IMG/VR virus record: IMGVR_UViG_3300034374_008812
Coordinates: 1 to 45,687 of that record
Origin: a virus
DNA: 45,687 nt
Direction: 5' to 3' (one strand)
The position numbers were made by a program, and so were the translations under genes. Of the stretch, positions 4,822-24,468 are shown in pieces. Numbering within the stretch: position 1 is the stretch's first letter; every line of letters begins with the position of its first letter. A model generated the notes under the pieces. The model saw only the letters and a list, made by a program, of their open reading frames with translations. It made no database searches and was not told the DNA's origin.

Positions 4822-5472
4822 TTATTCTATTGTTCTATATATAACATCTTGTGCTTCATCATTTAAAATCCAGTTACCCACACCTTCTAATTTATAAGCG
4901 TAAGGCACTGTGCTTTTTTCTCTAGTTACAGTTTTATTACCATCTTTATCTGTAGTAATTACAGTAACATATTTATAAATAGCATCTTTAAACTCTTTTG
5001 TTGGAGAGTTTTCTTCAAGTTCTATTTTTGGTTTTAATTCTTTAGAAGGAGAAATCTCAACAATAGATAAAGCCGCCCTCATTGGCATCTTATCTACTTT
5101 AGGCTTTTCTTTTTTAACTTCTTCAATTTTTGGAACAGAAGCTGCAACAGTTTTTAAAACTACTTTTTTAGGTTGCTTTATATCTTCAAAACTGCTTATA
5201 TTAAACGGTTGATTATTTTTAGCTTCTAACCTTTTAATAGCTGGTACTATAACAGTAGCCTCATAAGATCTATTTTTTTCAGTATAATCTTGGTATGCTT
5301 TAACTTTTTCCTCTTGAGTATTTAAAGTTTTTAATTTAGATTCTAATTCTTTAAAATAATTAAAAACTTTTGCGCTATCCGCTTCACTTTCTTTTAAGCC
5401 AGTTAAAGCTATGGGGTCTGTTGTGTAATAAACCCCGCTTGTACCACTCTGATATTTTTTTAGTAGTGACAT
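4822..5472 (-). CDS. Tagged virion-cargo protein (216 aa)
   Basis: It starts MSLLKKYQSGTSGVYYTTD, a full copy of the N-terminal element shared by the large proteins at 11.8-24.5 kb, although this gene is isolated from them beside the portal. The middle is lysine/glutamate-rich and helical, with a basic, proline-containing linker (residues about 115-160). The start sits 1 nt from the stop of the portal gene, indicating translational coupling. Probably a small protein carried in the head; no enzymatic motif seen. Confidence 0.65.
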   Translation of the reverse strand: MSLLKKYQSGTSGVYYTTDPIALTGLKESEADSAKVFNYFKELESKLKTLNTQEEKVKAYQDYTEKNRSYEATVIVPAIKRLEAKNNQPFNISSFEDIKQPKKVVLKTVAASVPKIEEVKKEKPKVDKMPMRAALSIVEISPSKELKPKIELEENSPTKEFKDAIYKYVTVITTDKDGNKTVTREKSTVPYAYKLEGVGNWILNDEAQDVIYRTIE

Positions 5473-7842
5473 TTATAAATTATTTTTTATTTCCCTTGCA
5501 TTACCCGCTACATTTTCTGCATATAACTGCTCTCTTTCTAAACGAACTACTTCTTTATCTTTCTCTACTTCAGCTGTAGCTGTTTTTTCATCTAAATCTA
5601 ATCTTCTTTCGCTGATTTTAATTCGTTCTTCAGATTCTTTTTTACGAATCTCCAGATCTTGCATTTTATATTCTCTATCTGATTTTTCAAGTTTTTCTTT
5701 TTCTTTTTGGGTTTTTTCTAGCTCTGTTTGCAATTGTTTAGCTTGCTCAGAAAGTTGCTCCAATTGTTGAGCCATTTGTTGCAGTTGATTATTCTCTTCT
5801 TTTTTCTTTTTAATACTTTCTGACAATAATAGATTAGCTTCTGTGATAGAGTCAGTCATCATCAATTTCATCAATACCTCGTCTTCTATAGAGCCTTTAC
5901 CTGCTAATTGAGGCGCAAGAGCGTTCAATTTTTCTAATTTTAAGTTTTCTTTACTAGAATTTACTAATTGAATATTGAAATCAGTAAACCTAAAGTTTTC
6001 TGGAGAAGCATTAAATAAAATGTTTCTATGGCCAACTATATAAGCTCCTTTCTTACCTTCTTTATAAGTAATTTTAGCTTGGTTTAATAAATCAATCAAA
6101 ACAAATTTTCTACTATCAAAAACTAATTCAAATAAATCTTTTGTAATTAAAGATGTTTGTTTAATACCAGTTTTAACATTTGTGACTGCATCTCTTTGTT
6201 CAGCAGCTGCATACATATATCTGTTTATACCTGTAACAATATCAGCTTGTGCTTGTATAGATTCTAAAACAACATTTAATTGTTGTATAATATTTCCATT
6301 TAAAGAACCTCTGAAATCCCCATAATGTTGGAATAAACCAGCTCCTTCTTCTGTTGGGTCGTATAATTCTAATCCTTGTTTACGGAAAGCTACAAATTTA
6401 AGTAATCTTTCCATAAAATCTTGCCCTAATACTTTTGGTATAGCAGCTAAATTAACACGAGAGCCATCTACACCTGCGTTAGCAATTAAATTATCTCTAA
6501 AGAAAGTAATTACATCATAAGAATTTTGTAAGTCTTCTAGAGACAACGCTACTGAATATGGCCTAGTATTTCTATCGTTATAACCAACTCCATTTATAGA
6601 TAAAGTAGTTTTCCAAGGCGCACTTATACTTCTAGGTGGATTTTTACTCTTACCTAAATTTAAATAAATGTCCCAACCAATTCTAACTCCTTCATACCTA
6701 TCTAACCTATAGCCTTTCTTATTAGGTTCGCCGTAACCAGCATCTTTTCCACCTCTGAGGTCTTTATCTAAAACTTCGCTGTAATATTTGCTCTTTTTTA
6801 TGGTTTCTACTACTTGATAGCTTTCTTTATCTTCTCCCGCAATTTCTACTTCATTGTTCGCTAACCATTCTACATGGTATACAGGTAAAGTATCCCACAT
6901 AGAATTCAAATGTTGGTTGTAGGTAGTATTCGCAGCTAATTCATAAATCCTATCCAACTGCCTTGGGTCCCTAATAACTTGAGCGCCTGATGAATCTGAT
7001 TTACCGTATAAAATAGTTTTTTGTTCGTCAGTCATTACATGACCCCATTTATTTAAAATAGCTGTTCTAGTCATATAAGTCCTGTGAACTACTGCAGTTA
7101 CATTAGGTTCGTTTCCGTTAGATAAAAACTGAAAGTTTGTATTTTTACTAAAAAATACATTTTCAGGTTTACATATTTCTAATTTTGGGTCTTCCCCTTC
7201 TCGGTCTATATAAGTTCTATAATAAGCTTCCCCCGTTATTAATAAATCTAAAAGATATTGTTTTAGTTTTTGTTTTAAATCTATAGTAGGGTCTTGCTCA
7301 AAAAATTTAATTAAAGATTGAGCTGCAATTTCGTATTGAGAAACAAAATCACTATTTAATGTTTTATTCAAATTTTCAATGAAGCTTTCTTCATAAGCTG
7401 TTTTAGGGCTTTCTTTACCGGCTTTTATTGCTTCTGTTGTATCTTTTTTAAATTGCTCTAACTTTTTTAATATTTCTTCGCTTTTCTTTTTCATCTTTTG
7501 CGCTTCTATATTATTTATAGTTTGAGCGTCATTCATAGAAATGCGATAGGTATACTCTTCATCTAAGAATATACCTATTAATACATCTATTTTAGTTTTT
7601 ACTAGAGGAGTCATTTTTACAGACATAGGAGTTTCTATGCCAAAAACTTGCTCTAAATATGCAAATTCTTCTTTATCCCGCACACCATCATATAAATTTC
7701 TAGCTTTTCTGATGTGTTCTTTTTCTCTAACTAAAGCAGAAATATAAAAATCAACGCTTTGACTTAAATAGTCAAATTTTGATTTATCCTCTTCAGATAT
7801 AGAAACATCTTCAATGTGGTAGTAACGTTGTATAAGACTCAT
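5473..7842 (-). CDS. Portal protein (789 aa)
   Basis: Probable portal, the dodecameric ring at the head vertex through which DNA is packaged and ejected. Support: its size matches the large portals of crAss-like phages, it is one small gene away from TerL, and it has the expected helical core followed by a long C-terminal coiled-coil (about residues 675-775, dense in E, K and Q) resembling a portal barrel/tail extension. The N-terminal ~200 residues carry charged helices. The motif evidence is indirect, so the call leans on size and neighbourhood. Confidence 0.75.
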   Translation of the reverse strand: MSLIQRYYHIEDVSISEEDKSKFDYLSQSVDFYISALVREKEHIRKARNLYDGVRDKEEFAYLEQVFGIETPMSVKMTPLVKTKIDVLIGIFLDEEYTYRISMNDAQTINNIEAQKMKKKSEEILKKLEQFKKDTTEAIKAGKESPKTAYEESFIENLNKTLNSDFVSQYEIAAQSLIKFFEQDPTIDLKQKLKQYLLDLLITGEAYYRTYIDREGEDPKLEICKPENVFFSKNTNFQFLSNGNEPNVTAVVHRTYMTRTAILNKWGHVMTDEQKTILYGKSDSSGAQVIRDPRQLDRIYELAANTTYNQHLNSMWDTLPVYHVEWLANNEVEIAGEDKESYQVVETIKKSKYYSEVLDKDLRGGKDAGYGEPNKKGYRLDRYEGVRIGWDIYLNLGKSKNPPRSISAPWKTTLSINGVGYNDRNTRPYSVALSLEDLQNSYDVITFFRDNLIANAGVDGSRVNLAAIPKVLGQDFMERLLKFVAFRKQGLELYDPTEEGAGLFQHYGDFRGSLNGNIIQQLNVVLESIQAQADIVTGINRYMYAAAEQRDAVTNVKTGIKQTSLITKDLFELVFDSRKFVLIDLLNQAKITYKEGKKGAYIVGHRNILFNASPENFRFTDFNIQLVNSSKENLKLEKLNALAPQLAGKGSIEDEVLMKLMMTDSITEANLLLSESIKKKKEENNQLQQMAQQLEQLSEQAKQLQTELEKTQKEKEKLEKSDREYKMQDLEIRKKESEERIKISERRLDLDEKTATAEVEKDKEVVRLEREQLYAENVAGNAREIKNNL

Positions 7843-7848
7843 CTTTTA

Positions 7849-8436
7849 TTATAATGTATATAAAATATCAAACTGATTAACTGTTTTCAATTTACAATCA
7901 CTTTCATTTAGTATAAGATTTCCACAAAATGGATCAAAAGCTACAACAGTGCCTTTTTTATATTTTTTAGCTTCTGGACCACAAGAAATAACTTCACCTT
8001 TTTGAGTTAAAGCTGATCTTGGATCTTCTTTACTATCATCATAAATACCGTCTTTTACAAGACCTTCACCTATAATCTTAACTAAAATTCTATCACCTGT
8101 TGGTTTTACTGTTTCTTCTGTCATATTTTCAAAATTACTTGTTACTTTGGCCACTATATCATGACCTCTAATTATCTTACAGTATCCATCTGTAGTTGGA
8201 ACTCCATAACCTGCAAACTGAGAAAAAATAATATTTTCTCCCTCTTTCAGTTCAGGACACTGGCTTTCTTCAGTTGCTTTATCTCCTAACTTTAAAGCAC
8301 TACCGTAATAGTACTCAATATTACTTTTAGTAGCAACTGGACCAGAACCAATATAGATTTCTCCATTTAAATTAGGTAATTCTGTTACTTCAGCTAAAAC
8401 GTTAAACCCTTCTGGTTTAATTGTTAATTTCTCCAT
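7849..8436 (-). CDS. Tandem GroES-like cochaperonin (195 aa, two Cpn10 domains)
   Basis: Two Cpn10-type domains are visible. Domain 1 (residues ~1-99) contains KPEGFNVLAEV, YYYGSALKLGD, LKEGENIIFSQFAGYGV and KIIRGHDIVAKV. Domain 2 (~108-195) has the classic start KPTGDRILVKI, a mobile-loop-like insert, KGEVISCGPEAKKYKKGTVV and CGNLI. Known family logic: GroES caps the GroEL chamber; T4 gp31 is a phage GroES substitute needed to fold its capsid protein. Here a double-domain version of about 21 kDa lies between TerL and portal, so it most likely helps host GroEL fold the phage capsid or portal. The double layout resembles plant chloroplast Cpn20. Confidence 0.85.
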   Translation of the reverse strand: MEKLTIKPEGFNVLAEVTELPNLNGEIYIGSGPVATKSNIEYYYGSALKLGDKATEESQCPELKEGENIIFSQFAGYGVPTTDGYCKIIRGHDIVAKVTSNFENMTEETVKPTGDRILVKIIGEGLVKDGIYDDSKEDPRSALTQKGEVISCGPEAKKYKKGTVVAFDPFCGNLILNESDCKLKTVNQFDILYTL

Positions 8437-8497
8437 ATTGACTTATTTACATATTATAGAAGTATATTAACAATTAAAACATACAGTTTAAGGTAAA

Positions 8498-11369: not shown

Positions 11370-11590
11370 AATTTTTCTAAATCTTTTGAGCTAAAAGTTC
11401 TCTCTTGATACAACCCATCTTTTGTAAACCAAAAACAAGTTATACCTAATAAAATAGGTTTTTTAATAGCAGTGTCCTCTTTTGTAGGGCGGATTTTGCT
11501 AATTTTTTGCACAACCATTGTAGGTTTATGCGGGAGATCTTGTTTTAATTGCACTAAGTCTCCTGTGTGGAAGTAAACGTGTAAACTCAT
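11363..11590 (-). CDS. YodC/DUF2158-like small SH3-fold protein (75 aa)
   Basis: The pattern GDLVQLKQDLP … MVVQKIS … GITCFWFTKDG … FSSKDLEKL matches the small YodC/DUF2158-type family (GD-V-LKSG-P-MTV … C-WF … F--L--). Function of that family is unknown. It heads the terminase sub-operon and follows a short AT-rich leader. Confidence 0.6.
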   Translation of the reverse strand: MSLHVYFHTGDLVQLKQDLPHKPTMVVQKISKIRPTKEDTAIKKPILLGITCFWFTKDGLYQERTFSSKDLEKLC

Positions 11591-11654
11591 ATTATCTTAT
11601 TTTCTTTATTTATAAAGATATTATAAGACAAATATTTTAAATTTTCAAGTTAAT

Positions 11655-11837
11655 CTAAATTTTATATTTATCCCATTTACTATCTTCTTCCATCTGCGGT
11701 CTGTGTAATCTTGCAATAGTAGTCTCTTTATAAGTTTTGTGTAAAGGATCTTTTTTAATTTTAGGTTCTACAATTTTTTTATTGTCATCGTAAACTTCAA
11801 ATCCTTCGTCGCTGTCGTGTAGATCGTCTAAGTTCAT
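11655..11837 (-). CDS. Small protein with scaffold-like docking motif (60 aa)
   Basis: It starts MNLDDLHDSDEGFEVYDD, and the LDDLH-(D/S)D element also occurs at both ends of the probable scaffold. The rest is basic and hydrophilic. It lies 1 nt after the stop of the zincin-containing cargo gene. I infer a head-assembly accessory that binds the same partner as the scaffold (capsid, portal or terminase). Confidence 0.55.
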   Translation of the reverse strand: MNLDDLHDSDEGFEVYDDNKKIVEPKIKKDPLHKTYKETTIARLHRPQMEEDSKWDKYKI

Positions 11838-11838
11838 T

Positions 11839-13575
11839 TTAATTTTGTTTTTGATAGATAATTTTACCGTTTTTTATTTGTTTTATTATATTACCTTTCG
11901 AGTCAAAAAAATCTATTACTCTAGAATCTGCCCCTAAAGTATTATCTAAAACTTCTTGCTCTCTAGATACAGGGTTTGTTCTTCTTGAAATATAGGGCTC
12001 AAATCCTTCTTCTATAGTAGTCTTTATAAATCTATCTTTATAATTAGAGTTAGTTTCTATGCTTTTTTTCATTAAGTCTCTTGCTGATTTTTCCCTTAAT
12101 CTAGTTGCTTCTTTTAATTGATTAAACTCATCTAAATTTCTAGGCATACCAAGGCGAACAGAGTTAAAACTTTGAGGTTTTTCAACAGAAAGAAGAGTTG
12201 GTTGTTTTGCTTTTTTAATTGGGTATTTTAAAGCCATTACAGCAACCGGGTCTATCATTACATCAGCGATGGTATTAGTAACAGGATTATTTATTCCTTT
12301 GCTTTGTAAATAAGAACTTGGAGTTAAATGTTTGTTATTTGTAAACGCAGACATCATCATGTTTTGAGGAATGCTAAACATATCTAATAAAGTAGTATTA
12401 TTAGATAATTCTATTTTTTCTGTACCAGGTTTATTATTTCTTAAATTATCTTCGTAAATTTTATTTTTAACATCTTCTTCTTGTGCAGGTATAGCATTTT
12501 TATTTAACTCTGCTGCACGTTTACCATCTGGATCTTTAATTGGAACATATCCGTTTGTTTTTCCAGGAATATTAATCATCCAACCAAATGCACCTTTCTG
12601 GTACCTTACACCTGGTCTACTTGGGTAGGTGTAGGTAACTGGACTTGTGCCATTTTGGTATTTTTTAATGTATAAAATTCCGCCTTTGCGAGCCATCATT
12701 ATTTTATTTTTATTATTTGTATTAGCAATAGTATTAAAAATTTCTAATAAATCATTGTCATTAAATCTCTGCTCTAATTGTTCAAGTTGATTTCTCCCAT
12801 TTATACCTTTCATTTTAGCTTTTATTTTTTCTAAAATTTCCGGGGTCATTGTTTCTGTATAAGGATCGAAAATGTTATTATCTTTTGCAAATTGCAATAT
12901 TGCATCTTTTCTAGCACTTATTTCTTCTAATCTACCTAAATAATTTAATTCCTTCAAGTTATTAATAATATGTTGCTTGCCTTGGTCGGTTTTTAAAAAA
13001 TCTTCATAAGGCATCGACATAAAGAAATTATTTTCTTGTTCATATTTTAATTTAGCGTTTTGTGCTAATTTTGTGTCTTTAAAAAGCTCATATGCTTTAT
13101 AAGGATTATTGTAATCAAATATAATTGCTTTTGCTTCAGGCATTTTTTCTGGCGTTGCAATTTGCCACTTTTGGTAATCATATTTTGGGAATGTATGGCC
13201 AGTTTCATTACTATTAGACATATGTCTATATTCATGAGTTTTAACATAAGGATTATAATCTGGCATATTTGTAAACAAAGTAACATTTCTTTTACCTTCA
13301 TAATAATTAGGGCTAGGATTAGCTTCCCCTAATACATTTGATAAAATAGGAGGTTCATTTGTTTCAAAATCATTTAAATTTTTTAACCTTTCAGTTATTA
13401 TTTCATCTGCTTTCAGTTGTAATTCTTCTTTATTTAAATTTGGAAAATCTTTACTTAAAGAATTCAGTAATAATTCTTTGTGTTTAGGTGAATTAAACCA
13501 ACCTTCTAAATATTCTTTTGAGTCGCTTGGGCTAACTAAAGTATTACCTTTTTGATATTTTTTTAATAATGCCAT
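11839..13575 (-). CDS. Tagged cargo protein with HEXXH zincin domain (578 aa)
   Basis: It starts with the shared tag MALLKKYQKG. H-E-Y-R-H at residues 114-118 (VKTHEYRHMS) is a HEXXH zinc-protease motif, and RLEEISARKDA (~215-225) offers a downstream glutamate as third ligand, a layout seen in phage zincin-like proteins. An internal copy of the tag, ARKGGILYIKKYQNG (~295-309), is followed by a W-module (~314-363; RPG-RYQKG … GYVPIKDPDG … LNKNAIP) also found in three other cargo proteins. The internal tag makes this look like two fused cargo proteins or a processed precursor. Probable role: a protease packaged in the virion. Confidence 0.7.
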   Translation of the reverse strand: MALLKKYQKGNTLVSPSDSKEYLEGWFNSPKHKELLLNSLSKDFPNLNKEELQLKADEIITERLKNLNDFETNEPPILSNVLGEANPSPNYYEGKRNVTLFTNMPDYNPYVKTHEYRHMSNSNETGHTFPKYDYQKWQIATPEKMPEAKAIIFDYNNPYKAYELFKDTKLAQNAKLKYEQENNFFMSMPYEDFLKTDQGKQHIINNLKELNYLGRLEEISARKDAILQFAKDNNIFDPYTETMTPEILEKIKAKMKGINGRNQLEQLEQRFNDNDLLEIFNTIANTNNKNKIMMARKGGILYIKKYQNGTSPVTYTYPSRPGVRYQKGAFGWMINIPGKTNGYVPIKDPDGKRAAELNKNAIPAQEEDVKNKIYEDNLRNNKPGTEKIELSNNTTLLDMFSIPQNMMMSAFTNNKHLTPSSYLQSKGINNPVTNTIADVMIDPVAVMALKYPIKKAKQPTLLSVEKPQSFNSVRLGMPRNLDEFNQLKEATRLREKSARDLMKKSIETNSNYKDRFIKTTIEEGFEPYISRRTNPVSREQEVLDNTLGADSRVIDFFDSKGNIIKQIKNGKIIYQKQN

Positions 13576-13599
13576 ATTATTATATATATTATAAATATT

Positions 13600-13756: not shown

Positions 13757-15973
13757 TTACTTATTTCCTTTGTTATAATTTTCAAGGTCTTTTTTTACTC
13801 TGTCCATATGTCTTTTTGCCATATAGCCTAGAGGAATACTTGTTGCGCCAAGCAAACCAGCAGCCCCCTTTATAAACTTATTATTTGAAGCTTTATCCCA
13901 GTCTCTAAGCACATCCATTTGCTTTGTATTAGCTGCATTTTTAGTACCCAACATAGTTAATTTAGCTGTTGTTTTTTGATTATCTCCTAAAGTACCTGGA
14001 GAAAATTCTTCAATAGTTTCAATAAGCTTATTGCCTTTATGATCAAAAAATTCACCTGAATCGTTGTAATATATTCTATTTTTCAAATCAAAAGGTTTAC
14101 CACCTGTTAAAGAAGAAACTTCAAAATCTCTGACTTTATTAGGTAAGAATTTCATCTTTTTTAATGGTTGTAAATCCCATGTATCTGTAAAATCAATAAA
14201 TTTTCTACCTTGCTCATCTACACCTTTTGTAATCCAACCATTACCATGCACACCACCAAAATTTAATTCTTTTTCAATTTCCATAGTACCAAATGATTTT
14301 TTAGGATTATCTATTATTTTTTGCAGTTTATTCTTCTCTAATTTAAAATCATTCAGCGCTAATGTATTATCTGCGTTTTTAGAGAAAGTATTAAACTCAG
14401 GTTCTAATCCGTTGTATAATCTCCAAGAATCAAATCTATTTTTAGTAGCGTAAGTTTTTGGCTTAAACTTCAAAGCTTTAGGTGTTATTACTTCTAATGG
14501 GGCTCCAGCTACTGTAAATAAATCATAACCTATAGGAGTTATAGATCTATTAACAATTTTACCTAACAAATTATTTTTAGCTTGCTTTGTATAGGTTTTC
14601 ATTATTTCTTTTTGTCTCTCAGGACTAAATCTAAAACCAAAACCTTCATATTGATTTGTAAATTGATTCCATTTAGCATCATTATATTTTCTTTTTAAAC
14701 CTTTTAAAAAATCACCTTTGGGGGCAACAATATCTTCTCCAAGATTAATTAAATCTTGTGGAGCTACATGAGAAGCTACTCCATGAATAAAATCTACCTT
14801 ATTTACATTTATATTTTTAAGTTCTGGATTTAATTTTACTAAAGATTCATATACAACATTTAATTCAACTGGCTCTACAAGTCCTGCTTGAGATCTTCTA
14901 GCAAATTCATTTAATCTATTAACATCAACTCCTTCTGGTAAAACATAGTCATGCCCAAATTGAGGATTTACAAGTTTTGATTTTTTAATAGAAGGTTCAA
15001 ATTTTTTAGTAACAAAATTATAATAGGAATCAGAATTCTTTTTAATAGCATCCACTGCTCTATAATGTACAGGATCTATACCTACTTGAGTCTTAGCAGA
15101 TTGTAAATTATATTTTGGAAATTTATATTCAAAATTAGGTGAGCCTGGTAGTTGTTTAGTAAAATTATTAGCTAATAAACCCCTAGCATCATCTGCATAT
15201 TTACCTAATACTTTACCGCCTAATCTTACCACATCAGGAGCCTTGTATAATAATCCTGCAGGAGCTGTAACTATACCCGGCAAAGAAGCTGCATTTAAAG
15301 TATTTGGTGTGTATCTACCTGATAAAGCATCTCCTAATGTAGTAGGTTGATCGGCATTAGTAGCATATTTCATAACAAATGAACCTGGTATATCTGCAAA
15401 AGAAAGAGCATCAGCAGCATTTCCTAATTTTTGCATTACACCTTTAGGGTAGTAATATTTCGCTTCTTCAGCTGGAGTTAATCCTTTTATATCAGGTGTA
15501 AAAGTCGGTCCTTGCTTTCCTGTTAAATTTAAGAAGCTGTTAGCTGCGGATACTGCTCCACCTTTGGTTCTTGCCCACAATGAAGGCTCTATATATTTAG
15601 CATATTTAGAGTTAGGCATTGCTTTAGAAAGAATCTTAGCGTTAACTAAGTTATTCATTATAGACTCTCTATCTGTAAGATCTATATTATTTTCTTTAGC
15701 ATACTGCTCTATAACATAATTATTTCTATCATAATCATATCGATTGTGTATCCTTTGTTCAGCTTGCTCAGGAAAATTTCTTTCGTTTACATTAAATAAA
15801 TTTTGTAGTCCTTTATTACCTTTGTTTAAGTAATTATCTTTTTCATTTATAAGGTAATCACGATAAGGATTTTTAGAATTATAATCATTATAATACCTAG
15901 TTAAAGGAGTTATAGATGTTTCCTTTAACGTCTTTCCTTTTTGGTATTTTCCTATTTTATTATATAACATCAT
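13757..15973 (-). CDS. Large tagged cargo protein of unknown function (738 aa)
   Basis: N-terminus MMLYNKIGKYQKGKTLKE is a variant of the shared tag. The body has no motif I recognise. A Gly/Ala-rich hydrophobic segment near the C-terminus (~707-725, GAAGLLGATSIPLGY) could insert in a membrane and is followed by a basic tail. A further weakly hydrophobic Pro/Gly stretch lies around residues 230-250. Two ATGs are adjacent (15973 and 15970). It forms an ordered block with the 837-aa and 578-aa genes, all tagged. Likely a virion-internal protein delivered with DNA. Confidence 0.6.
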   Translation of the reverse strand: MMLYNKIGKYQKGKTLKETSITPLTRYYNDYNSKNPYRDYLINEKDNYLNKGNKGLQNLFNVNERNFPEQAEQRIHNRYDYDRNNYVIEQYAKENNIDLTDRESIMNNLVNAKILSKAMPNSKYAKYIEPSLWARTKGGAVSAANSFLNLTGKQGPTFTPDIKGLTPAEEAKYYYPKGVMQKLGNAADALSFADIPGSFVMKYATNADQPTTLGDALSGRYTPNTLNAASLPGIVTAPAGLLYKAPDVVRLGGKVLGKYADDARGLLANNFTKQLPGSPNFEYKFPKYNLQSAKTQVGIDPVHYRAVDAIKKNSDSYYNFVTKKFEPSIKKSKLVNPQFGHDYVLPEGVDVNRLNEFARRSQAGLVEPVELNVVYESLVKLNPELKNINVNKVDFIHGVASHVAPQDLINLGEDIVAPKGDFLKGLKRKYNDAKWNQFTNQYEGFGFRFSPERQKEIMKTYTKQAKNNLLGKIVNRSITPIGYDLFTVAGAPLEVITPKALKFKPKTYATKNRFDSWRLYNGLEPEFNTFSKNADNTLALNDFKLEKNKLQKIIDNPKKSFGTMEIEKELNFGGVHGNGWITKGVDEQGRKFIDFTDTWDLQPLKKMKFLPNKVRDFEVSSLTGGKPFDLKNRIYYNDSGEFFDHKGNKLIETIEEFSPGTLGDNQKTTAKLTMLGTKNAANTKQMDVLRDWDKASNNKFIKGAAGLLGATSIPLGYMAKRHMDRVKKDLENYNKGNK

Positions 15974-15975
15974 TT

Positions 15976-18489
15976 TTAATTTTGTTTTTTATTCCAAGGG
16001 TTATAAAGTAAAGATCCTAAACCTATTGGAGCTAATGCCTTATATATATTAGGGTTAGTCATGTCAAACATTCCATTATTACCTATTAAAGATTTAAGTC
16101 TATTGTTACCTTTAAAGAATATTACATCATCCCCTATATCTTCTCCTGGTTTTAACTTTAAAGAATTATCATAATTATCTACAACATTTTTAGCTGTAAA
16201 AGAATCGAACCCTTGTTTTTTATATCTTTCTGCTAATTTATTAGTAGTAAGAGGCGAAGTTTCACGAGCATTAGGATCTAAAAAATCATTTTTTTGGATT
16301 GTCATATCTTTTTTATAAGGGGCAGATTCAGGTAAAGATTTTAAATATTTTTCTGCTGCTTGTTTTGATCTAAATGTATTTCCTTCTGGAGACAGCATAT
16401 TACCAAAAGCATCATATTGCATACCTTCTTTATTATTAGAACCTACGACATAACCACTTTTCTTACCTATCCAACTATTTCCTTTATAATCTACAGATTT
16501 ATTTTTACCTAAATTTGCTCCTAATTCTAGCACCTTACCTTTATCCCCAGCATAAGTTTTAGCTATGTTTTTGTTAGTAGTCGTAAAAATTAGGTCAGGG
16601 TATAAATTTCCACTAGTTAATCTTTCTGCTTTACTTAAATCAAATTCTGTTAAATCTCTAGCTGGAGTTCCGTGGTATAGTACATTTTTATACATATTTT
16701 CAGCTTGTTTTTCCCCCCCTGCAAATCTTGTTAAATTTTTAGATTTCATTTGGACAAACTGTTCTGGACTACCGTTGAATTTAGTACCGTCACTATATTT
16801 CATCCATGTTCCATCAGCTTTAGCTTGTTGCTCAATAGCATTATACTCTTGCATTAAAGCTTTATTTTCTGGTATTTCTTTATTCCATTTACCCCAATCT
16901 ATTTCAGATTTAAAATCTTGAGTAGGTAATAAATCAGATAAGTATTTATTTGTATTGATTACTTTAGATTTATCTGCTTTTGCTACTACTTCATCTATAC
17001 TGTTTTTCCATTCTGTTATATCGTATTTAGCACCGCGTTTTTCTATTCTTTTTACAAACTCATCTTTTGGTATATTTATAATTTTATCAAAAGAGTCTAA
17101 ATTATTCCTTAATAAGTTTGTATTTGATGTAAACAATACTTGCCCTTTACTTTTAGCTTCTTTTTTAACTTCATCAAATAAAGACTGCATCATTTGATTA
17201 TATTCTTTATTCCATACTTCATTACCTCCGTTCTTTACTTGATATGTAGAAATATTATACTTTTTTGCAATATCATTTACTGAATTATTTATAACATCTG
17301 CATAGTCATCATCTAAAGATAAAAACCTATTGTCACCGGCTTGCTTTAAATAACTTTTACCTATAGTTGGATGACCAAATATAATTTCATCTGTGTTATT
17401 TATTACCGGTTCAAAAACACTTCCTGTAGCTTGCCCTACATCTTGAGCTTTTGCTCCTACAACTGCTTTATTATAAGCTTTTCTAACAATTGGATTATAT
17501 TTTGCACTAGCTGGGTTTAATTGAGGCACTAACACAGATCTGAAATCGTTAGCTACACTAGTTGGAGTGGAACTAATCCTAGGAATTATTTTATTACCTA
17601 TAATATTGTTTAATTTAGAAGAGTTGCTTAACCTCATAGTTTCCAAAGCAGCGCTTTCTCCCATGTTCATTAACCTACCAGAACGACCAATTAATTTAGT
17701 ACCTGGTATAAGATCTAAAGCCGTAAATGCCGTTGAAGTTAAAGCATTTTGCCAATCCTCCATTTTACCGCTTTTTATTGCTTTTCTTATGTCCTCTTCA
17801 GTGTAAAGAGCATCATTACCAGCATTAATTAAAGCAGTAGTTGGGTGTAAATATGAAGCTGCGTTTAAACCTTTTAAAACAGTGTTATTATCAAAAACGG
17901 GATCTGAAAATCCAGGCGATCTTTCCATAGCACTATAATTCATAGGCATATTGAAAGGCCCAGGTTTTAAAAAATAAGCTGTTGCTACTAGAGGGTTTCT
18001 AATTATGTTTCCAGCTTTATCTGCCCAAGTATATTCAGGAGCCGATTGTATTGTCCCAGGATCTTTCGGATATACCATTGCTGGTATATAACTATCTATT
18101 TTGTTTGTATCTAATAGGATTTTAGCTTTATCTTCTTCAGACAACCAATTAGCATTTTTAATTTTATCTACTACTATAGATCTTTCAGCAGCTCTTCTTT
18201 TTGAACCCTCTTCAACTATATTAGCAGCTGTATTAGCTATAAGTAAATTTTTTGGTTGAGTTGATTCAGCAACTTCTACTCTAGGTAAAGAATTAAAATT
18301 AGCTGTATTAAAATTAGAATAAGGTATAGCGTTCTTATTTAATTCTGCTGTTCTTTGTTCTACATTTCCAGCAGTTAATGGTAAATATTTACCATTAATT
18401 TCTTTAAACCATTTATCTCCTTCTTTCTTATAATTGTGGTTATTATATCTATAATACCCGCCGTCTTGATATTTTTTTAATAATGCCAT
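15976..18489 (-). CDS. Tagged cargo protein with ADP-ribosyltransferase-like domain (837 aa)
   Basis: It starts MALLKKYQDGG (tag) and continues with a W-module (~12-56, DKWFKEINGKY … LNKNAIP). Residues ~601-770 look like an ADP-ribosyltransferase: NVLYHGTPARD (605-608 YHGT) with LIFTTTNKNIAKTYAG (~633-648), the usual YHGT…FTT…A--YA spacing of ART domains in phage polyvalent proteins. A catalytic glutamate was not located with certainty. A hydrophobic segment near the C-terminus (ALAPIGLGSLLY) may contact membrane. Probable role: an enzyme packaged in the head and injected to modify a host target. Confidence 0.65.
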   Translation of the reverse strand: MALLKKYQDGGYYRYNNHNYKKEGDKWFKEINGKYLPLTAGNVEQRTAELNKNAIPYSNFNTANFNSLPRVEVAESTQPKNLLIANTAANIVEEGSKRRAAERSIVVDKIKNANWLSEEDKAKILLDTNKIDSYIPAMVYPKDPGTIQSAPEYTWADKAGNIIRNPLVATAYFLKPGPFNMPMNYSAMERSPGFSDPVFDNNTVLKGLNAASYLHPTTALINAGNDALYTEEDIRKAIKSGKMEDWQNALTSTAFTALDLIPGTKLIGRSGRLMNMGESAALETMRLSNSSKLNNIIGNKIIPRISSTPTSVANDFRSVLVPQLNPASAKYNPIVRKAYNKAVVGAKAQDVGQATGSVFEPVINNTDEIIFGHPTIGKSYLKQAGDNRFLSLDDDYADVINNSVNDIAKKYNISTYQVKNGGNEVWNKEYNQMMQSLFDEVKKEAKSKGQVLFTSNTNLLRNNLDSFDKIINIPKDEFVKRIEKRGAKYDITEWKNSIDEVVAKADKSKVINTNKYLSDLLPTQDFKSEIDWGKWNKEIPENKALMQEYNAIEQQAKADGTWMKYSDGTKFNGSPEQFVQMKSKNLTRFAGGEKQAENMYKNVLYHGTPARDLTEFDLSKAERLTSGNLYPDLIFTTTNKNIAKTYAGDKGKVLELGANLGKNKSVDYKGNSWIGKKSGYVVGSNNKEGMQYDAFGNMLSPEGNTFRSKQAAEKYLKSLPESAPYKKDMTIQKNDFLDPNARETSPLTTNKLAERYKKQGFDSFTAKNVVDNYDNSLKLKPGEDIGDDVIFFKGNNRLKSLIGNNGMFDMTNPNIYKALAPIGLGSLLYNPWNKKQN

Positions 18490-18494
18490 AATAC

Positions 18495-20300
18495 TTATTT
18501 TGCAAAGTTTTTAGCAAAATTAGCCTTCTTGACCATCTTACTACTATATTTATTCTTATTAGCTAAAATATGGCTAGCTGCTTCTTGAACATCCATGCCC
18601 ATTTTTGTAGCTTGCGCTTTAAATGTACCTTTCTTTTCAGGATCTATTTTTATAGTATTTCCTTTTTTATATAAAAGACCACCTTTTTTAAAAATTGCAG
18701 TTTGAGGTATACTCTTACCTGCTGTTGATCTTATATAATTATCTAAATTATACATGGTTTTATTTACATACTTATTTTTTGTGGCATCACCACGCAATAG
18801 TACACCTGGACTACGCCAAGCAGTTGCCCATCTTTCTTCAGGGCTTAATTCTACATTACCCTCTGCTTGCCTATAAACTTCACCGTTTTTTACACTGTAT
18901 AAATTGCCTTGATTGGGGTAGTATTTTTCTACTTCTTTTCTTAATAAAGCAGTTTTATATTGATCATCAACGTCATAATTTAAGAATACTCTTTTACCAT
19001 TAGGTAGCATATAATAACCATCAAATGTTTCATCTGGTTTTTGAAATGAACTACCTCTTAAATCCCTGGAAAAGAATTGCTTAGGTGAAGACCACATACC
19101 AGGAGCTTCTTTACTTTTAATAACCCTAGGATTTTCATTACCCCTATTATATAAGCTCTTAGAAGATTTATCCAATTGGCTCAAATATATCATAGAAGCT
19201 AAACCAGCTTTATAAGGATCTTTTAAATCAGATCTAGATCTAATACCATATTTATCCGCTATACTCGCTAACCTAGGGTCGTTAAAAATATTATCTGGGT
19301 TTATTTGAGTCATACCTATACTACTACCTACTAATTCTGAAGCATACCCTTTGATTCCCTTCAAAGATTTACCGCCTTTGGTTTCGGTCATAGCAGTTGC
19401 GGTTAAAAAGTTAACCATTTGTTTGTATTTATCTGGGTCTAAATTTAAATCTTTAGCTAAATTATTTGCGTGTTGAACTAAAGCTAAAGTAAAATTACCT
19501 AAATCATGAGTTAAATATTTTTCCCCCTCACTACTATTATTTACTGCTTTTTCAAAACCAACTGATTTTTTAATTTTATCATAAGGATTTTGCACTTCAA
19601 AATCGTAGGATTTATTTTGCTCATCAAAAAACTTTTGAAAAAATTCTCTATTTAAATTTAAATTTTCTTCTGGTGCTATAACTGTTTGCAAATTATATTT
19701 TTTCCACACTTCTCTAGCTTCTGATAAAGTATATAATTTTTTATCATAAGCATCCATTAATATAGATTCCCCAGTATCTTTATCCCATCCTACTTTGATC
19801 ATAGTATGGTTAGAATTTTTATAGCCTTTGGCTTTAGAATAACCATATGGGTGCATATCTTGATCAGGTCCCCATAAATAAAAAGTACCTACAGGGGTAT
19901 CTAAATCAAAATTTTCATTTCTATTTTCATCTAAAATATTGTAAAAAGTCTTACCACTATCTGCGTATACCCCTGCTAAATCCCAACTGTCTACAGATCC
20001 CTTGTAATCACCTTTTAAATAAGGGTATTTTTCTATTTGTTCTGGTGTTGGTTGAGTAGATGTTGTCAATAAACCTCTAGCGTTTTCTATATCACCTATA
20101 GTTTTTACTCCAGGAATATAACCTAAACCTTTAGTATATAACAAACAAGCGTCCCCTTTACAATTACCCAGAGTACCTTCTAACATATTATCTCTAAAAA
20201 AGTCAGAATTAGCTCTGTCTTCTGCAGTATAAATTACTTTATCTATGCGAGTATTAAATCCTTTACCTGGTTGAAATTTTTTTACTTTGTTATATAGCAT
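18495..20300 (-). CDS. Tagged two-domain peptidoglycan hydrolase (601 aa)
   Basis: N-terminus MLYNKVKKFQPGKGF is a tag variant. Domain 1 (~40-200) resembles an NlpC/P60- or C39-like cysteine peptidase, with C52 in DACLLY, H165 in NHTMIKVGW and D183 in LMDAYD. Domain 2 (~250-400) resembles a lysozyme-like fold, with E296 in AMTETKGG and SIGMTQINP (~317-325). A KKGGLLYKKG element (~540) precedes a basic ~45-residue C-terminal module (KGTFKAQATKMG … AASHILANKNKYS … KKANFAKNF) that I associate with Bacteroidota-phage virion proteins. Likely cuts the host wall during DNA entry rather than at lysis. Confidence 0.7.
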   Translation of the reverse strand: MLYNKVKKFQPGKGFNTRIDKVIYTAEDRANSDFFRDNMLEGTLGNCKGDACLLYTKGLGYIPGVKTIGDIENARGLLTTSTQPTPEQIEKYPYLKGDYKGSVDSWDLAGVYADSGKTFYNILDENRNENFDLDTPVGTFYLWGPDQDMHPYGYSKAKGYKNSNHTMIKVGWDKDTGESILMDAYDKKLYTLSEAREVWKKYNLQTVIAPEENLNLNREFFQKFFDEQNKSYDFEVQNPYDKIKKSVGFEKAVNNSSEGEKYLTHDLGNFTLALVQHANNLAKDLNLDPDKYKQMVNFLTATAMTETKGGKSLKGIKGYASELVGSSIGMTQINPDNIFNDPRLASIADKYGIRSRSDLKDPYKAGLASMIYLSQLDKSSKSLYNRGNENPRVIKSKEAPGMWSSPKQFFSRDLRGSSFQKPDETFDGYYMLPNGKRVFLNYDVDDQYKTALLRKEVEKYYPNQGNLYSVKNGEVYRQAEGNVELSPEERWATAWRSPGVLLRGDATKNKYVNKTMYNLDNYIRSTAGKSIPQTAIFKKGGLLYKKGNTIKIDPEKKGTFKAQATKMGMDVQEAASHILANKNKYSSKMVKKANFAKNFAK

Positions 20301-20315
20301 ATCTTTTTTTTTGTT

Positions 20316-21209
20316 TTATTTTTTATACAATAAACCGCCTTTTTTGAATTTGTAAGTTTTAACAGCTTTAGCATATTGTCTTTCAAACTCAGGGTTAGAT
20401 TTATATAAAATTTTATTTACATAATCTCTAGTTTCTCTAGGTAGCTCGTTCATCCACTCTTTCCCTTTATAAATATCTACGCCTTTTTTCTTTTGTTCAT
20501 TCAAATATTCTAAAAAATTACCTCTTCCATGGTTGTAAGCTGCTAAAGTTTTAGCTAACCTTATCTCATTAGATTGATTAGGTTTATTAATGAAAGATGC
20601 ATTATACAAATCAGTCATGTACCATTTCTGAATCTTAGCACTAACTTCAGGATCATATAAACTATCTGTAGATTTTATTATTCCTGCTTTTACAGCATCC
20701 CCCTTTACATCAGGCATTATTTGCGCTAAGCCAGCAGCACCAGCGGGAGATACTGATTTAGGGTTAAAGCTAGATTCTTTAAATTGTTGTCTTAATAAAA
20801 AATCATTAGTGAATATTTCAGAATTTACTTTAGGCTCTGCTTTAGGCTCAGGTTTAGCATCTGATACAAGTTTAGGCTCAGAAGAATCTTTAATATATCT
20901 TTCTGGTTTTTCTGGTTCACCAAAGAAAGACTTACCATAAGCAGGTACATCTGTTCTTAGTTGTGTAGATGGTAATCTAAGCTCATCATTTAACTTTGAT
21001 TTGCGAGATCCATCGGGGTCTTTTATAGCTACATAGTAACCATTAGTACTTTCATTCTTTATAAACCAATCATCAAAAGCATCTTTCATATAAGTAGATC
21101 CTGGTCTTTCAGGGTGTACATATATTTTTTTATCGAAAATATCTGCTTCATTTATAGTTCTACCTGGAGCTTTAGGTTTTGGTTTTTTATCGTTGTACAA
21201 TAAAGACAT
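20316..21209 (-). CDS. Tagged SLT-type lytic transglycosylase (297 aa)
   Basis: Soluble lytic transglycosylase fold in the C-terminal half: the catalytic glutamate is in RQQFKESSFNPKS, followed by GAAGLAQIMPD and KTLAAYNHGRGN (the Y-N-x-G motif). The N-terminus MSLLYNDKKPKP is a shortened tag, a W-module follows (VHPERPGSTYMK … YYVAIKDPDGSR), then a low-complexity K/E/P linker; the extreme C-terminus is KFKKGGLLYKK. I chose the ATG at 21209 over a TTG at 21221, which would overlap the upstream gene. Virion-carried wall-degrading enzyme used at entry. Confidence 0.8.
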   Translation of the reverse strand: MSLLYNDKKPKPKAPGRTINEADIFDKKIYVHPERPGSTYMKDAFDDWFIKNESTNGYYVAIKDPDGSRKSKLNDELRLPSTQLRTDVPAYGKSFFGEPEKPERYIKDSSEPKLVSDAKPEPKAEPKVNSEIFTNDFLLRQQFKESSFNPKSVSPAGAAGLAQIMPDVKGDAVKAGIIKSTDSLYDPEVSAKIQKWYMTDLYNASFINKPNQSNEIRLAKTLAAYNHGRGNFLEYLNEQKKKGVDIYKGKEWMNELPRETRDYVNKILYKSNPEFERQYAKAVKTYKFKKGGLLYKK

Positions 21210-21217
21210 AATTAAAA

Positions 21218-21472
21218 TCAATTCATTAAACTAAATTTTTGTCTGTAAGCTAATTTCTTACTAACTACCTCATTATCAGCAATTTCTCTTACAGAACAAA
21301 ATATAATATTTTCTTCTCCATACTTATCATACATATTTTGTATAGCTTCTACAGGATGTTTTCCTTCTCTTAAAAGCTTAAGATGTACAGAAACACTAGC
21401 ATTAAAATCTTGAGTAGTATTAATGTAGATGTACTCATCTTGTATACTAGTTATGTAGTAAAGAGTTGCCAT
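21218..21472 (-). CDS. Degenerate GIY-YIG-like protein (84 aa)
   Basis: The segment HLKLLREGKHPVEAIQNMYDKYGEENIIFCSV matches the conserved core of phage GIY-YIG endonucleases (H--L--GKH … Q--Y-KYGE--F-F-V-E). However, the catalytic GIY/YIG strands read YYI and YIYIN and the usual arginine is not evident, so it is probably catalytically dead. It is a short stand-alone gene lying between wall hydrolase and beta-barrel genes. It may be a domesticated remnant of a homing endonuclease. Confidence 0.6.
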   Translation of the reverse strand: MATLYYITSIQDEYIYINTTQDFNASVSVHLKLLREGKHPVEAIQNMYDKYGEENIIFCSVREIADNEVVSKKLAYRQKFSLMN

Positions 21473-21552
21473 AGAAATTTATAGTAAATAAAAAAGAAAA
21501 AACCAGAATAAATTAATATCCTGGCTGAAATTTTTATATGTAAAATAATAAA

Positions 21553-22299
21553 TTAAAATCTATATTTTAAACCTGCTCTGATATTATAATTAGAGTCGTA
21601 TTTACCTTTATCATATCTACCTTCTAAATTACCTGATAATTTAGGCGTGAAATATTTTTCGGCATTAATATTAGCGCCTACTCTGTAGTTTTCATTCTTA
21701 CCTAGACCTTTTTCAGCGGAAGCAGAAACCCCTAAATAACCATTCTTCAAAGGCACTCCTTTATTAACATTATAGCCTAAAGAAAAGCTAGGGCGGCTTA
21801 TACCTTTATATGTCACAAATTCAGGAAATCCGGGTGCACTAGGTATTTTATCCATAGCGTAGTTAGCCTCAGCCTTGACCCCTAGGGACCCTAAATTTTT
21901 AGGTAAGTCTTTGTATAAACTAGACTCGAACCTATTAAACTCTTCTATCTGCGGATATTGTTCTATTATTTTTTCACCATTTTTATCTACATCTTCATAA
22001 ATTCTCATTCTCTTTGCCTTCTCAAGGCTAGCCATACCATCAACTCTAAAACCTTTAGGCAAAGCAGCACCAGCACCACCCATTTTCATATAGTCATTGG
22101 GAGCTTCTAATCTTTCTTCATGGCTCCACCCATAAGCAGTAGGATTCCATCTACCAACAGGAGCTGATAAATTTATCCTAGGTTCTTCTTTTTCTACTAA
22201 AGGGCTGGTATTCATAAACTTATGTTTAAGGTCTAAATCCTTTATATAGGAATTTATAGTACCTTCTGTTTGATATTTTTTAGTATATAGTAAAGACAT
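21553..22299 (-). CDS. Tagged beta-barrel-like protein (248 aa)
   Basis: It starts MSLLYTKKYQTEG (tag), not a signal peptide. The last ~100 residues show alternating polar/apolar beta-strands (PSFSLGYNV, GYLGVSASAEKG, YRVGANINAEKYF, LSGNLEGRYDK, NYNIRAGLKYRF) and the protein ends in an aromatic F, the classical end of outer-membrane beta-barrels. The absence of a signal peptide and presence of the tag suggest that it reaches the host outer membrane from the virion rather than through secretion. Confidence 0.55.
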   Translation of the reverse strand: MSLLYTKKYQTEGTINSYIKDLDLKHKFMNTSPLVEKEEPRINLSAPVGRWNPTAYGWSHEERLEAPNDYMKMGGAGAALPKGFRVDGMASLEKAKRMRIYEDVDKNGEKIIEQYPQIEEFNRFESSLYKDLPKNLGSLGVKAEANYAMDKIPSAPGFPEFVTYKGISRPSFSLGYNVNKGVPLKNGYLGVSASAEKGLGKNENYRVGANINAEKYFTPKLSGNLEGRYDKGKYDSNYNIRAGLKYRF

Positions 22300-22301
22300 A
22301 A

Positions 22302-23726
22302 TTATTTTTTATTATATAATATTCCTCCTTTGTTAAACTTATAACTACCGTAATAATTAGGTTTAGTACTCTCTTCTCCTGTTTCTGGGTTATAGTATAA
22401 TATAGGTTCACTTACATCTTGCCAACCATCGCTATCTTTAAAAAAAGCATCTTTTTGAGTTCTAACTTCTTTTACTTGATGTCTGCCTGTTTTAGGGTTA
22501 AATACTAAAACTGTTTGCATTCTAGGGCTCGTCATAAGCGGAGTATAATAATCTTTAAGAGAGCCTGTTTTTTCTATAATAGGTCTAAAATCTGGTTTTT
22601 TAACCATAGGTCTCATTTCCATTTTATCTGGAATGATTGGTTTAGGCTTACTTATTAATCCAAGATTAAATTTTATAGATTTTTTACCATTAGTAATTAA
22701 AGGATGATCATACCGACTAGTTGATGGTGGTAAAGTTCCAGTTAAATTCTTATAATCTTTAAACAAATCCTCCAATTTTTTCTCTTCTAATTTCCACTTA
22801 AGAGCCCCATTATAATCATCAGGCTTTATTTGTTTTAACTTTGCTAATCTTTCTTGTTGCATCTTATAGATAGCCAATTCCAAATCGTATTTTTTCTTTT
22901 CATATTCAAAACTTGTCTTTTTAGGTGGCTCAATAGAAACAAGAGTCTTTTTTAACGAAACACCAGTATTGTTACTTTTTAAATCTACACTATCTATAGG
23001 TTTAGCATTTTTGTCCAAAAAAGCAGATCTTTTTGCTACGTCTGTTTTTAATTCTACAAACTTACCATTAATTTCTTTTTGCCATTTACCATTTACTTTC
23101 CTATAAGTATTACCTCCATAAGTATAAGAACCTGCCCAATTTTTAGGATTAGAAGGTGGTAATATAGGTTGTATAGGGTTAGCAGGAATTTCGTCTTGCA
23201 AATAAAAATATTCTTTTTTTTGTTGATTATAAATTTTATCAGAAATTAACTCTCGTTCTTTGTCCGACGATGCTTGCTCATAGTCCTCCCAAAGGCTACT
23301 AAAATAAGGAGAATGAATATGAGTACCTATAAGACGACCCCCGTGTAATTGATTTAACCTACTAGGAATTTTATTCCATAAATCATCACCTGACCCTATT
23401 AAAATTCCTTGTTCATCTTTAAGAATTATTTTATCACCTCTATTTTCAGGCTCATAACCGGCAGCAGCAATTTGAGCAAAAATAGGACTTTTCCAACGAT
23501 CATAATCCCATATACTATAATTATTTATATTATTTTGTATTTGATTTCGCGTAGTTTTAAAATCCTCCACTGCTTGTACATGCCTAGTATTACTATCGTT
23601 GTAAGCTTGTAATCTATTATTATATTCATCCCAAGTTTGAGCTTGGTAAGGATTAGTTTGAGGACGATAATTTAAAGGATCTATTCTTCTACCTTTTTGA
23701 AATTTTTCTACATATAATAAACTCAT
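22302..23726 (-). CDS. Tagged cargo protein of unknown function (474 aa)
   Basis: I chose the ATG at 23726, which puts the tag MSLLYVEKFQKGRR at the N-terminus and starts 1 nt after the preceding stop; a longer start at 23750 adds eight residues. It has a W-module in the middle (YGGNTYRKVNGKW … FVELK … LDKNAKP) and ends in KFNKGGILYNKK. The segment GGRLIGTHIHSPY (around residues 130-142) has closely spaced histidines, but no known active site is completed. Proline-rich linkers occur towards the C-terminus. Likely packaged in the particle. Confidence 0.6.
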   Translation of the reverse strand: MSLLYVEKFQKGRRIDPLNYRPQTNPYQAQTWDEYNNRLQAYNDSNTRHVQAVEDFKTTRNQIQNNINNYSIWDYDRWKSPIFAQIAAAGYEPENRGDKIILKDEQGILIGSGDDLWNKIPSRLNQLHGGRLIGTHIHSPYFSSLWEDYEQASSDKERELISDKIYNQQKKEYFYLQDEIPANPIQPILPPSNPKNWAGSYTYGGNTYRKVNGKWQKEINGKFVELKTDVAKRSAFLDKNAKPIDSVDLKSNNTGVSLKKTLVSIEPPKKTSFEYEKKKYDLELAIYKMQQERLAKLKQIKPDDYNGALKWKLEEKKLEDLFKDYKNLTGTLPPSTSRYDHPLITNGKKSIKFNLGLISKPKPIIPDKMEMRPMVKKPDFRPIIEKTGSLKDYYTPLMTSPRMQTVLVFNPKTGRHQVKEVRTQKDAFFKDSDGWQDVSEPILYYNPETGEESTKPNYYGSYKFNKGGILYNKK

Positions 23727-23727
23727 A

Positions 23728-24468
23728 TCATTGGAAATTATATCTTTCATTAACCCAGTTCCCTCCTTGTGGTTGAGGTTTAGCTTTATGTTGAGGCTTG
23801 ACTTTCTTTCTTATAGCATTTAAATTAGCTGTTGCACTTAGCCCTGCGTTCCAAGTAAAATAAGGTTTATCTTTATAACTTGAATTTGCTATACCTGCAT
23901 TACCGTATAAATTAAAAGAAAAAGGGGATTTTTTAGGTTGATAAGACAAACGCCCATAAGTACCCATAGTAGCTTCACCTTTTGCTTCTTGTTCTTTTTT
24001 AAGTAAACCTGCAAGGGATAAATAGTACCCATAAGTCCCTTTTAAATTAGAACCGTATTTACCTATATCGAATTTAGAGCCTAGATGTCCTTGATGAGTT
24101 AATTTTAACCCATCATTATTAAATGAAGCTCCTATTCCTAACCCCATATCATATTTTTTACGAGGATTTTCTGTTACTTCTAAACCTAGCCTACCATATA
24201 ATTTATTATTAGAATCTAAGGCTAAACCTACATCTCCATAAGTACGATTACCATCTAAACTAGTAACATTAGGATTTTTTATTCTATGTGTGTACATAAA
24301 ATTAGTGTTGTAATTATTATCCCCTAGATTTGAATAATAATCGTTGCCGCCTTGTGTATATACAGCAAAATTACTATTTAAAGGCATGCCGGTTTTTTTA
24401 TTCCTCCCTTGTATATCATGCAGGCCAGTACCGCCTATTTGAAATTTTTGTACGTATAGTAAAGACAT
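23728..24468 (-). CDS. Tagged beta-barrel-like protein, first gene of the virion arm (246 aa)
   Basis: N-terminus MSLLYVQKFQIGGTGLHD is the clearest copy of the tag. The body is a series of alternating strands rich in Gly, Tyr and Asn (GDVGLALDSNN, YGRLGLEV, DMGLGIGASFNN, YGSNLKGTYGYYLSLAG, TMGTYGRLSYQ, FSFNLYGNAG), resembling an outer-membrane beta-barrel. The C-terminus is basic, then ends VNERYNF-Q. No signal peptide. It may pair with the 248-aa barrel-like protein to form a channel at DNA entry. Confidence 0.55.
   Translation of the reverse strand: MSLLYVQKFQIGGTGLHDIQGRNKKTGMPLNSNFAVYTQGGNDYYSNLGDNNYNTNFMYTHRIKNPNVTSLDGNRTYGDVGLALDSNNKLYGRLGLEVTENPRKKYDMGLGIGASFNNDGLKLTHQGHLGSKFDIGKYGSNLKGTYGYYLSLAGLLKKEQEAKGEATMGTYGRLSYQPKKSPFSFNLYGNAGIANSSYKDKPYFTWNAGLSATANLNAIRKKVKPQHKAKPQPQGGNWVNERYNFQ

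Follow-up and report, generated by a model that had tools for sequence, protein, structure and literature searches.

A short basic terminal tag on diverse late proteins of a distant crAss-like phage lineage, a candidate address label for virion cargo

This study concerns a short element at the starts of otherwise dissimilar proteins encoded in the window, which is the whole 45,687-nucleotide (45.7-kb) stretch of the IMG/VR virus record IMGVR_UViG_3300034374_008812. This element, the tag, is probably a modular label at protein ends that addresses cargo to the virion, similar in logic to the capsid targeting sequence of phage T4. Most proteins at the cargo positions C1 and C2, which gp45 and gp46 occupy in crAss001, bear the tag, as does an exchangeable accessory set encoded upstream of TerL. 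As far as sampled, the sequences indicate that the tag looks like a trait of one Crassvirales lineage and not of Bacteroidota phages generally.

Records and counting

The left half of the window is a crAss-like virion arm on the minus strand, and the right half is an arm on the opposite strand with mostly small genes. The 80-kb record G001 matches and extends the window, and its TerL is 100% identical. The capsid protein of the window (104-1519) matches Pfam Crass_capsid (E 5.8e-17), and the muzzle of the near-identical G001, the gene for which is outside the window, matches Pfam crAss_MUZ (E 1.5e-33); these two models place the phage in Crassvirales, as a distant member.

Proteins were counted as open reading frames (ORFs) of at least 70 amino acids (aa), with overlapping ones removed. 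The strict motif, K-[YF]-Q and then G within two residues, was sought in the first 34 residues of the proteins of the window and 17 related records. Records left out of the counts were near-duplicates (G001, G009, G021, L004), short records (L014, L015, L017, L018, G012, G013, G019, G027, G028), MT835492, in which the virion ORFs are broken under the standard code, and G033, which was added later. Among these, G001, G021, L004, L015 and G033 carry strict tags, and the rest carry variants only or none. A set of four named Crassvirales was nearly whole, lacking the first 9 kb of crAss001, the last 0.4 kb of phi14:2 and the last 1.4 kb of cr108_1.

The tag and its enrichment

An initial annotation of the window had named nine tagged gene starts. 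Read from the DNA, eight of them hold the strict motif: MSLLYVQKFQIGG, MSLLYVEKFQKG, MSLLYTKKYQTEG, MLYNKVKKFQPG, MMLYNKIGKYQKG, MALLKKYQDGG, MALLKKYQKG and MSLLKKYQSG. The ninth, at 21209 in the SLT transglycosylase gene 20316-21209, is MSLLYNDKKPKP, which is degenerate and keeps merely MSLLYNDKK. Thus, a shared start element was confirmed, whereas none of the nine starts carries the full consensus LLYxKKYQxGG literally, which was found to be a composite. As described, KGGILYIKKYQNG occurs inside the 578-aa protein, and KGGLLYKK and KGGILYNKK occur at C-termini. The capsid protein, portal, TerL and GroES are also without the tag as described, and the portal shares just M-S-L.

In the window, 8 of 54 proteins have a strict N-terminal tag, against 0.17 expected from internal positions, and 1000 shuffles of N-terminal residues gave at most two. 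In the 17 related records 36 of 1203 proteins are tagged, against 1.6 expected, and shuffles gave at most five. In the consensus of these 44 tags, M-x-[LI]-[LIY] leads into [KR]-K-[YF]-Q-x-G-G, the first and second G columns being filled in 40 and 25 of the 44, respectively, and the third residue past the first G is hydrophobic in 30 of 44. Overall, the element approximates M-x-[LI]-[LIY]-(x)-[KR]-K-[YF]-Q-x-G-G-x-[LIVFM]. Since the search pattern itself demands the K, Y/F, Q and nearby G, only the remaining columns are informative. The K of the tag is residue 5 to 8 in 31 of 44, and tagged starts are basic, with a mean charge of +2.1 over 14 residues versus +0.27.

The C-terminal copies resemble KGG[LI]LYxKK. 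An LLY-type element of this kind ends 7 of the 44 tagged proteins versus 7 of 1213 others (p = 1.1e-7). Over all proteins the LLY..K ending is barely enriched (27 versus 17.5 expected), and a clear signal is limited to its co-occurrence with the N-terminal tag. In addition, the 578-aa protein has a complete tag unit in mid-chain, as though two tagged proteins had fused.

The exact pattern occurs in eight IMG/VR stretches, five of them in two contigs with a TerL equal to that of the window and three not at the starts of long ORFs. A second variant gave six stretches. Two are in the known lineage records G010 and G017, two are gene starts with the same peptide, and two are not at the starts of long ORFs. 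One of the two gene starts is in G033, a 178-kb record with a capsid protein 40% identical to that of the window, where this tag is on the opposite strand. A general cellular signal was considered and rejected. The exact pattern was found in 32 genome_contigs stretches from many phyla, none of which starts an ORF of at least 60 aa with at most eight open codons upstream (L167 is one codon short). Five of these stretches (L169, L174, L186, L188, L191) come from a single type of protein and have the motif 30-39 codons past a stop, so near the N-terminus; this protein may be a Bacillota sigma factor.

Location of the tagged genes

The strand that carries the capsid gene holds 43 of the 44 tags (43 of 689 genes versus 1 of 568 on the opposite strand; Fisher p 7.6e-11). 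This single tag among the opposite-strand genes also agrees, roughly and by strand only, with the expectation that polymerase-like enzymes are not tagged equally often. With respect to position, 28 tags fall 2-15 kb upstream of TerL, among them the opposite-strand tag, which is in G025. A further 13 are 33-54 kb downstream of TerL, where the cargo genes are, and 3 are elsewhere.

The tagged cluster upstream of TerL is highly variable between relatives. For example, the tags of this cluster in G010 are MILRKYQLGG, MSILYKYQSGG, MSLLYKYQSGG and MSLLYKYQTGG, and other sets are found in G003 and G017. Domains also shift behind the constant tag, as in G010_10734, residues 2-147 of which match residues 137-280 of G017_1959, both proteins being tagged. 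Untagged patatin-like proteins, recognized by eye from a GGGxRG-type start, are present in or beside the tagged cluster (G002 25715-26626, G004 7255-8169, G010 9644-10561, G011 4025-4954).

The downstream tags, strict or variant, are mainly on the C1- and C2-position proteins and an adjoining small Ala/Gly/Pro-rich protein, and they persist to phages with a capsid protein 40% identical to that of the window (MT835470, G033). The 17 homologues in these three cargo-position families include 8 with the strict motif, 6 with a looser pattern, one of which (G024) is probably spurious, and 3 with neither. Of the 238 homologues found in the 17 relatives for twenty conserved structural families (among them capsid, scaffold-like, portal, GroES, TerL, muzzle and ring), 1 is tagged, a fragmentary G024 ORF from a tail-module protein.

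Relation to the crAss001 cargo proteins

In crAss001, gp45 (C1) and gp46 (C2) were detected in the virion by mass spectrometry, residues 425-552 of gp45 were seen bound to the portal, and cargo sets vary within Crassvirales (PMC10172136, in its available portion). A module model was derived from the C-terminal 65 residues of the 601-aa protein of the window and three relatives. With E values for the analysed protein set, this model matches the C1-position protein of cr108_1 (E 3.8e-32) and residues 367-424 of gp45 (E 1.6e-6), a stretch just before the portal-bound domain. IMG/VR scans for relatives of C1 and C2 returned the source records only.

Bodies of the tagged proteins

A Pfam scan of 29 proteins of the tagged clusters identified three that pass the curated cut-off: the SLT transglycosylase of the window (5.4e-17; degenerate tag), an M23 peptidase with a strict tag, and a glucosaminidase of MT835470 with a variant tag, encoded on the strand opposite the capsid gene. 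GNAT and lysozyme matches are just under the cut-off. Pfam shows at most one enzyme type per chain in the scanned proteins, and further domains are seen by eye only. Of the enzyme classes initially annotated in the window, the transglycosylase was thus upheld, and the zincin (HExxH, as HEYRH, in the 578-aa protein) and the ART (YHGT in the 837-aa protein) are motifs seen by eye only. The predicted structure of the 246-aa barrel-like protein, from one sequence, is of unusable confidence (pLDDT 37.2), and its eight predicted strands fit a barrel and prove nothing. The 601-aa protein, predicted from two sequences, is equally unusable (pLDDT 36.6). A P-loop kinase-like stretch (GHPxxGKS/T) was noted by eye in the tagged 837-aa protein (15976-18489) and in a giant ORF of G001 (1-6870).

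With the first 17 residues removed, the nine bodies of the window share by BLAST (E 1e-3) only a mini-domain of about 50 aa and one 36-residue stretch, and two of the nine proteins match best within the tag itself. The mini-domain was modelled from eight proteins, all of tagged clusters and some with variant tags, and its model found no other convincing carrier in the analysed protein set (next E 0.021). Table 1 lists the positions of these features.

Table 1. Positions of the tag, its copies and associated features in the window
Feature	Position	Strand	Protein or remark
N-terminal tag MSLLYVQKFQIGG	24430..24468	-	246-aa barrel-like protein, gene 23728-24468
N-terminal tag MSLLYVEKFQKG	23691..23726	-	474-aa protein, gene 22302-23726; longer ORF from 23750 possible
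Mini-domain (about 50 aa)	22986..23132	-	474-aa protein
C-terminal element KGGILYNKK	22305..22331	-	474-aa protein
N-terminal tag MSLLYTKKYQTEG	22261..22299	-	248-aa protein, gene 21553-22299
Degenerate N-terminal tag MSLLYNDKK	21183..21209	-	297-aa SLT transglycosylase, gene 20316-21209
Mini-domain (about 50 aa)	20961..21128	-	SLT protein
C-terminal element KGGLLYKK	20319..20342	-	SLT protein
N-terminal tag MLYNKVKKFQPG	20265..20300	-	601-aa protein, gene 18495-20300
C-terminal module, residues 537-601, begins FKKGGLLYKK	18498..18692	-	601-aa protein; common to crAss001 gp45 and cr108_1 gp056
N-terminal tag MALLKKYQDGG	18457..18489	-	837-aa protein (ART-like motif by eye), gene 15976-18489
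Mini-domain (about 50 aa), directly after tag	18307..18459	-	837-aa protein
N-terminal tag MMLYNKIGKYQKG	15935..15973	-	738-aa protein, gene 13757-15973
N-terminal tag MALLKKYQKG	13546..13575	-	578-aa protein (HEYRH zincin-like motif by eye), gene 11839-13575
Internal full unit KGGILYIKKYQNG	12649..12687	-	578-aa protein
Mini-domain (about 50 aa), after internal tag	12478..12636	-	578-aa protein
60-aa ORF starting MNLDDLHDSD	11655..11837	-	directly downstream of tagged cluster
N-terminal tag MSLLKKYQSG	5443..5472	-	216-aa protein beside portal gene, gene 4822-5472
Scaffold-like acidic 388-aa protein, net charge -52, LD(A/D)LHxD at both ends	1614..2780	-	possible partner of basic tag

Weighing the interpretations

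The initial annotation had proposed a packaging or processing signal. Packaging fits the strand, the position, the rarity of the tag in structural families, the tagged cargo-position proteins and the gp45 module. Several observations weigh against a cargo label. The lineage is known here from genes and not from particles, and the records share ancestry (e.g. G014/G017, G004/G005), so the tag counts are not independent. Among the four named Crassvirales, 1 of 389 proteins has a strict tag against 0.42 expected, and the tag thus looks lineage-specific; the single case is the start of the crAss001 capsid protein and is presumably chance. Two tagged genes are on the opposite strand, one in G025 and one in G033. 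Of the three cargo-position proteins without either pattern, two look variant by eye (KFAEGG, ARFMQQGG), and the proteins at the C1 position in G001 (MYKSNKKLVLKADGG) and G023 (MPDKTPKYKIG) do not have the strict tag. G013 is a real counter-example, with no tag in about 4.5 kb of sequence upstream of TerL. No strict tag is present on the giant ORFs at the expected place of the virion RNA polymerase (a cut one of 2290 aa in G001; one of 3404 aa and a cut one of 3569 aa in G005), among which the G001 ORF, the sole one scanned with Pfam, gave weak helicase/AAA matches. The PHROG matches of the SLT domain are to endolysin (7e-22) and tail protein (1.3e-15), with internal virion protein third (3.6e-11).

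The link to the crAss001 cargo is also qualified on several sides. The module occurs in ORFs of unassigned role, some of them short, in G002, G018, G023, cr114_1 and MT835470, and is thus not exclusive to cargo. The Pfam models crAss_CARG1 and CARGO2 matched none of eight cargo-position proteins from four records. Homology of C1 and C2 to their counterparts in crAss001, phi14:2, cr108_1 and cr114_1 was tried with hhalign and rejected, and PHROGs and Pfam likewise gave none. For these reasons, orthology to gp45 and gp46 is not claimed, and the cargo role of C1 and C2 in this lineage is assigned by position. Two of the 17 relatives, G014 and G016, have no strict tag, and both hold little sequence upstream of TerL.

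The processing part of the proposal found little in its favour. In this alternative, which we regard as improbable, a head protease would cut past the glycines, trimming protein ends and splitting fused proteins. G is at +4 in 40 of 44 tags, GG follows x in 21 of 44, and similar KGG elements are internal and at C-termini; however, 23 of 44 tags lack GG, just 2 of the 8 strict tags of the window have it, cutting the C-terminal copies would shed few residues only, and no protease was seen, though none was systematically sought. Cleavage is also compatible with targeting and does not exclude it, as in T4, where the capsid targeting sequence serves both and is removed by the prohead protease. More improbable still is that the tag directs proteins to a membrane, the envelope or a partner inside the infected or newly entered host and not into the virion. 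The transglycosylase (degenerate tag), M23 peptidase (strict) and glucosaminidase (variant, opposite strand) are all envelope-directed, and a short hydrophobic-basic start could touch membranes, but cargo-position proteins and proteins with no recognized envelope domain bear the same tag, C-terminal copies exist, and by inspection the tag is too short for a signal peptide.

The tandem arrangement of the cluster and the mini-domain in four of the nine window proteins would suit a functionless remnant of common descent, in which paralogues or recombinants merely keep a shared start. This is very unlikely, because the tag is kept in homologous pairs at 25-38% identity (WIN_4822/L015, WIN_18495/G003, WIN_11839/G017) and its residues stay while the codons vary. 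A feature of the DNA at gene starts, such as a translation enhancer, promoter or recombination site that encodes the peptide incidentally, is hardly credible. Lys is encoded by AAA in 46 of 50 cases at the tag versus a background of 68%, and GGC and GGG are over-used for Gly along with AAA for Lys, yet all four Gly codons and both codons for Tyr, Phe, Gln and Lys occur across the records, so the tags have no fixed DNA word in common. Copies also exist at C-termini and in mid-gene, and structural genes on the same strand are nearly without the tag.

Proposed mechanism of the cargo label

If the tag is a cargo label, it would be bound during head assembly by the scaffold, portal or inner capsid of the prohead or by a cargo hub, and any late protein that gained the tag would be packed. 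The packed carriers would be ejected ahead of or with the DNA, and the murein hydrolases and other enzymes among them would act on the envelope or the host. Scaffold genes usually sit just before the capsid gene, and the 388-aa acidic protein of the window is encoded there. In a lineage-specific loading code, the acidic scaffold ends (LDDLHxD) would catch the basic tag, so that late proteins gaining the tag become injected cargo. Binding by charge is a guess, and such a code is doubtful; its odds are lowered because the pattern used for the acidic motif failed to pick it up on the scaffold of distant tagged relatives, for example G018, G022 and MT835470. A similar motif begins the 60-aa ORF beside the tagged cluster, and the motif was also observed in one small ORF each of G002 (63 aa) and G021 (92 aa). 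If this code were true, the genes clustered upstream of TerL would form an interchangeable store of enzymes for delivery, and the tag would predict, and allow one to engineer, the cargo of uncultured crAss-like phages.

Other features of the records

The late genes of some relatives look recoded, with TAG inside the TerL frame in G023 (n=7), G025 (n=8) and G026 (n=19), and the virion arm of MT835492 consists of small broken ORFs under the standard code. A 195-aa GroES-like protein (window 7849-8436) lies between TerL and portal, and NCBIfam GroES models match both of its halves weakly. In the opposite-strand arm, a 496-aa protein (window 42733-44223) has a G8 domain and an apparent signal peptide by eye. 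The virion arm of G001 also encodes a ferritin-like protein (37478-38044, L021; Pfam PF00210, 7.1e-18) beside a ring-type gene, with four homologues in relatives.

Comparison with known systems

The ejection proteins of T7 include a transglycosylase, and we know of no common tag among those of P22 or T7. These proteins are internal and exit the capsid before the DNA does (PMC10172136). Polyvalent proteins, known from phages and conjugative elements, are encoded in late-gene neighbourhoods and carry enzyme domains thought to be injected (PMC5512222, in the part available). The tagged genes share this neighbourhood and the enzyme domains, whereas polyvalent proteins hold many domains in one chain and the domains here appear to be mostly on separate proteins with a common tag.

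The closest comparison within the order is with C1, C2 and the virion RNA polymerase of crAss001. Tagged genes occupy the C1 and C2 positions and one tagged protein has the gp45 module, whereas gp45 and gp46 are without the strict motif and the cargo-position proteins of this lineage miss the Pfam cargo models. The cargo protein of crAss001 is estimated at about 5.5 MDa, and the available portion of that account describes no shared terminal tag (PMC10172136). The accessible text of a Crassvirales review likewise mentions none (PMC10136315), nor was such a tag described in the open-licence literature searched, as far as its text was available, and the available literature on crAss-like phages offered no explanation of how cargo is chosen. 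With a readable tag, the cargo of uncultured phages could be predicted from their sequences, a rapidly changing repertoire of delivered proteins would be indicated, and a dozen residues would suffice for testing the loading directly.

In T4, one conserved capsid targeting sequence takes highly diverse internal proteins into the precursor scaffolding core, and it works on foreign proteins (PMC3012670, as far as its text was available). The tag is likewise a short conserved element on otherwise diverse proteins, here among late and virion genes, and is compared with the T4 sequence by logic and not by letters. The two differ in that T4 belongs to another phage order and that copies of the tag are also C-terminal and internal. 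The logic appears to be the same, and membership in the T4 system is not claimed. If the cargo-label reading is true, the tag would be a further example beside T4 of one short label for many internal proteins.

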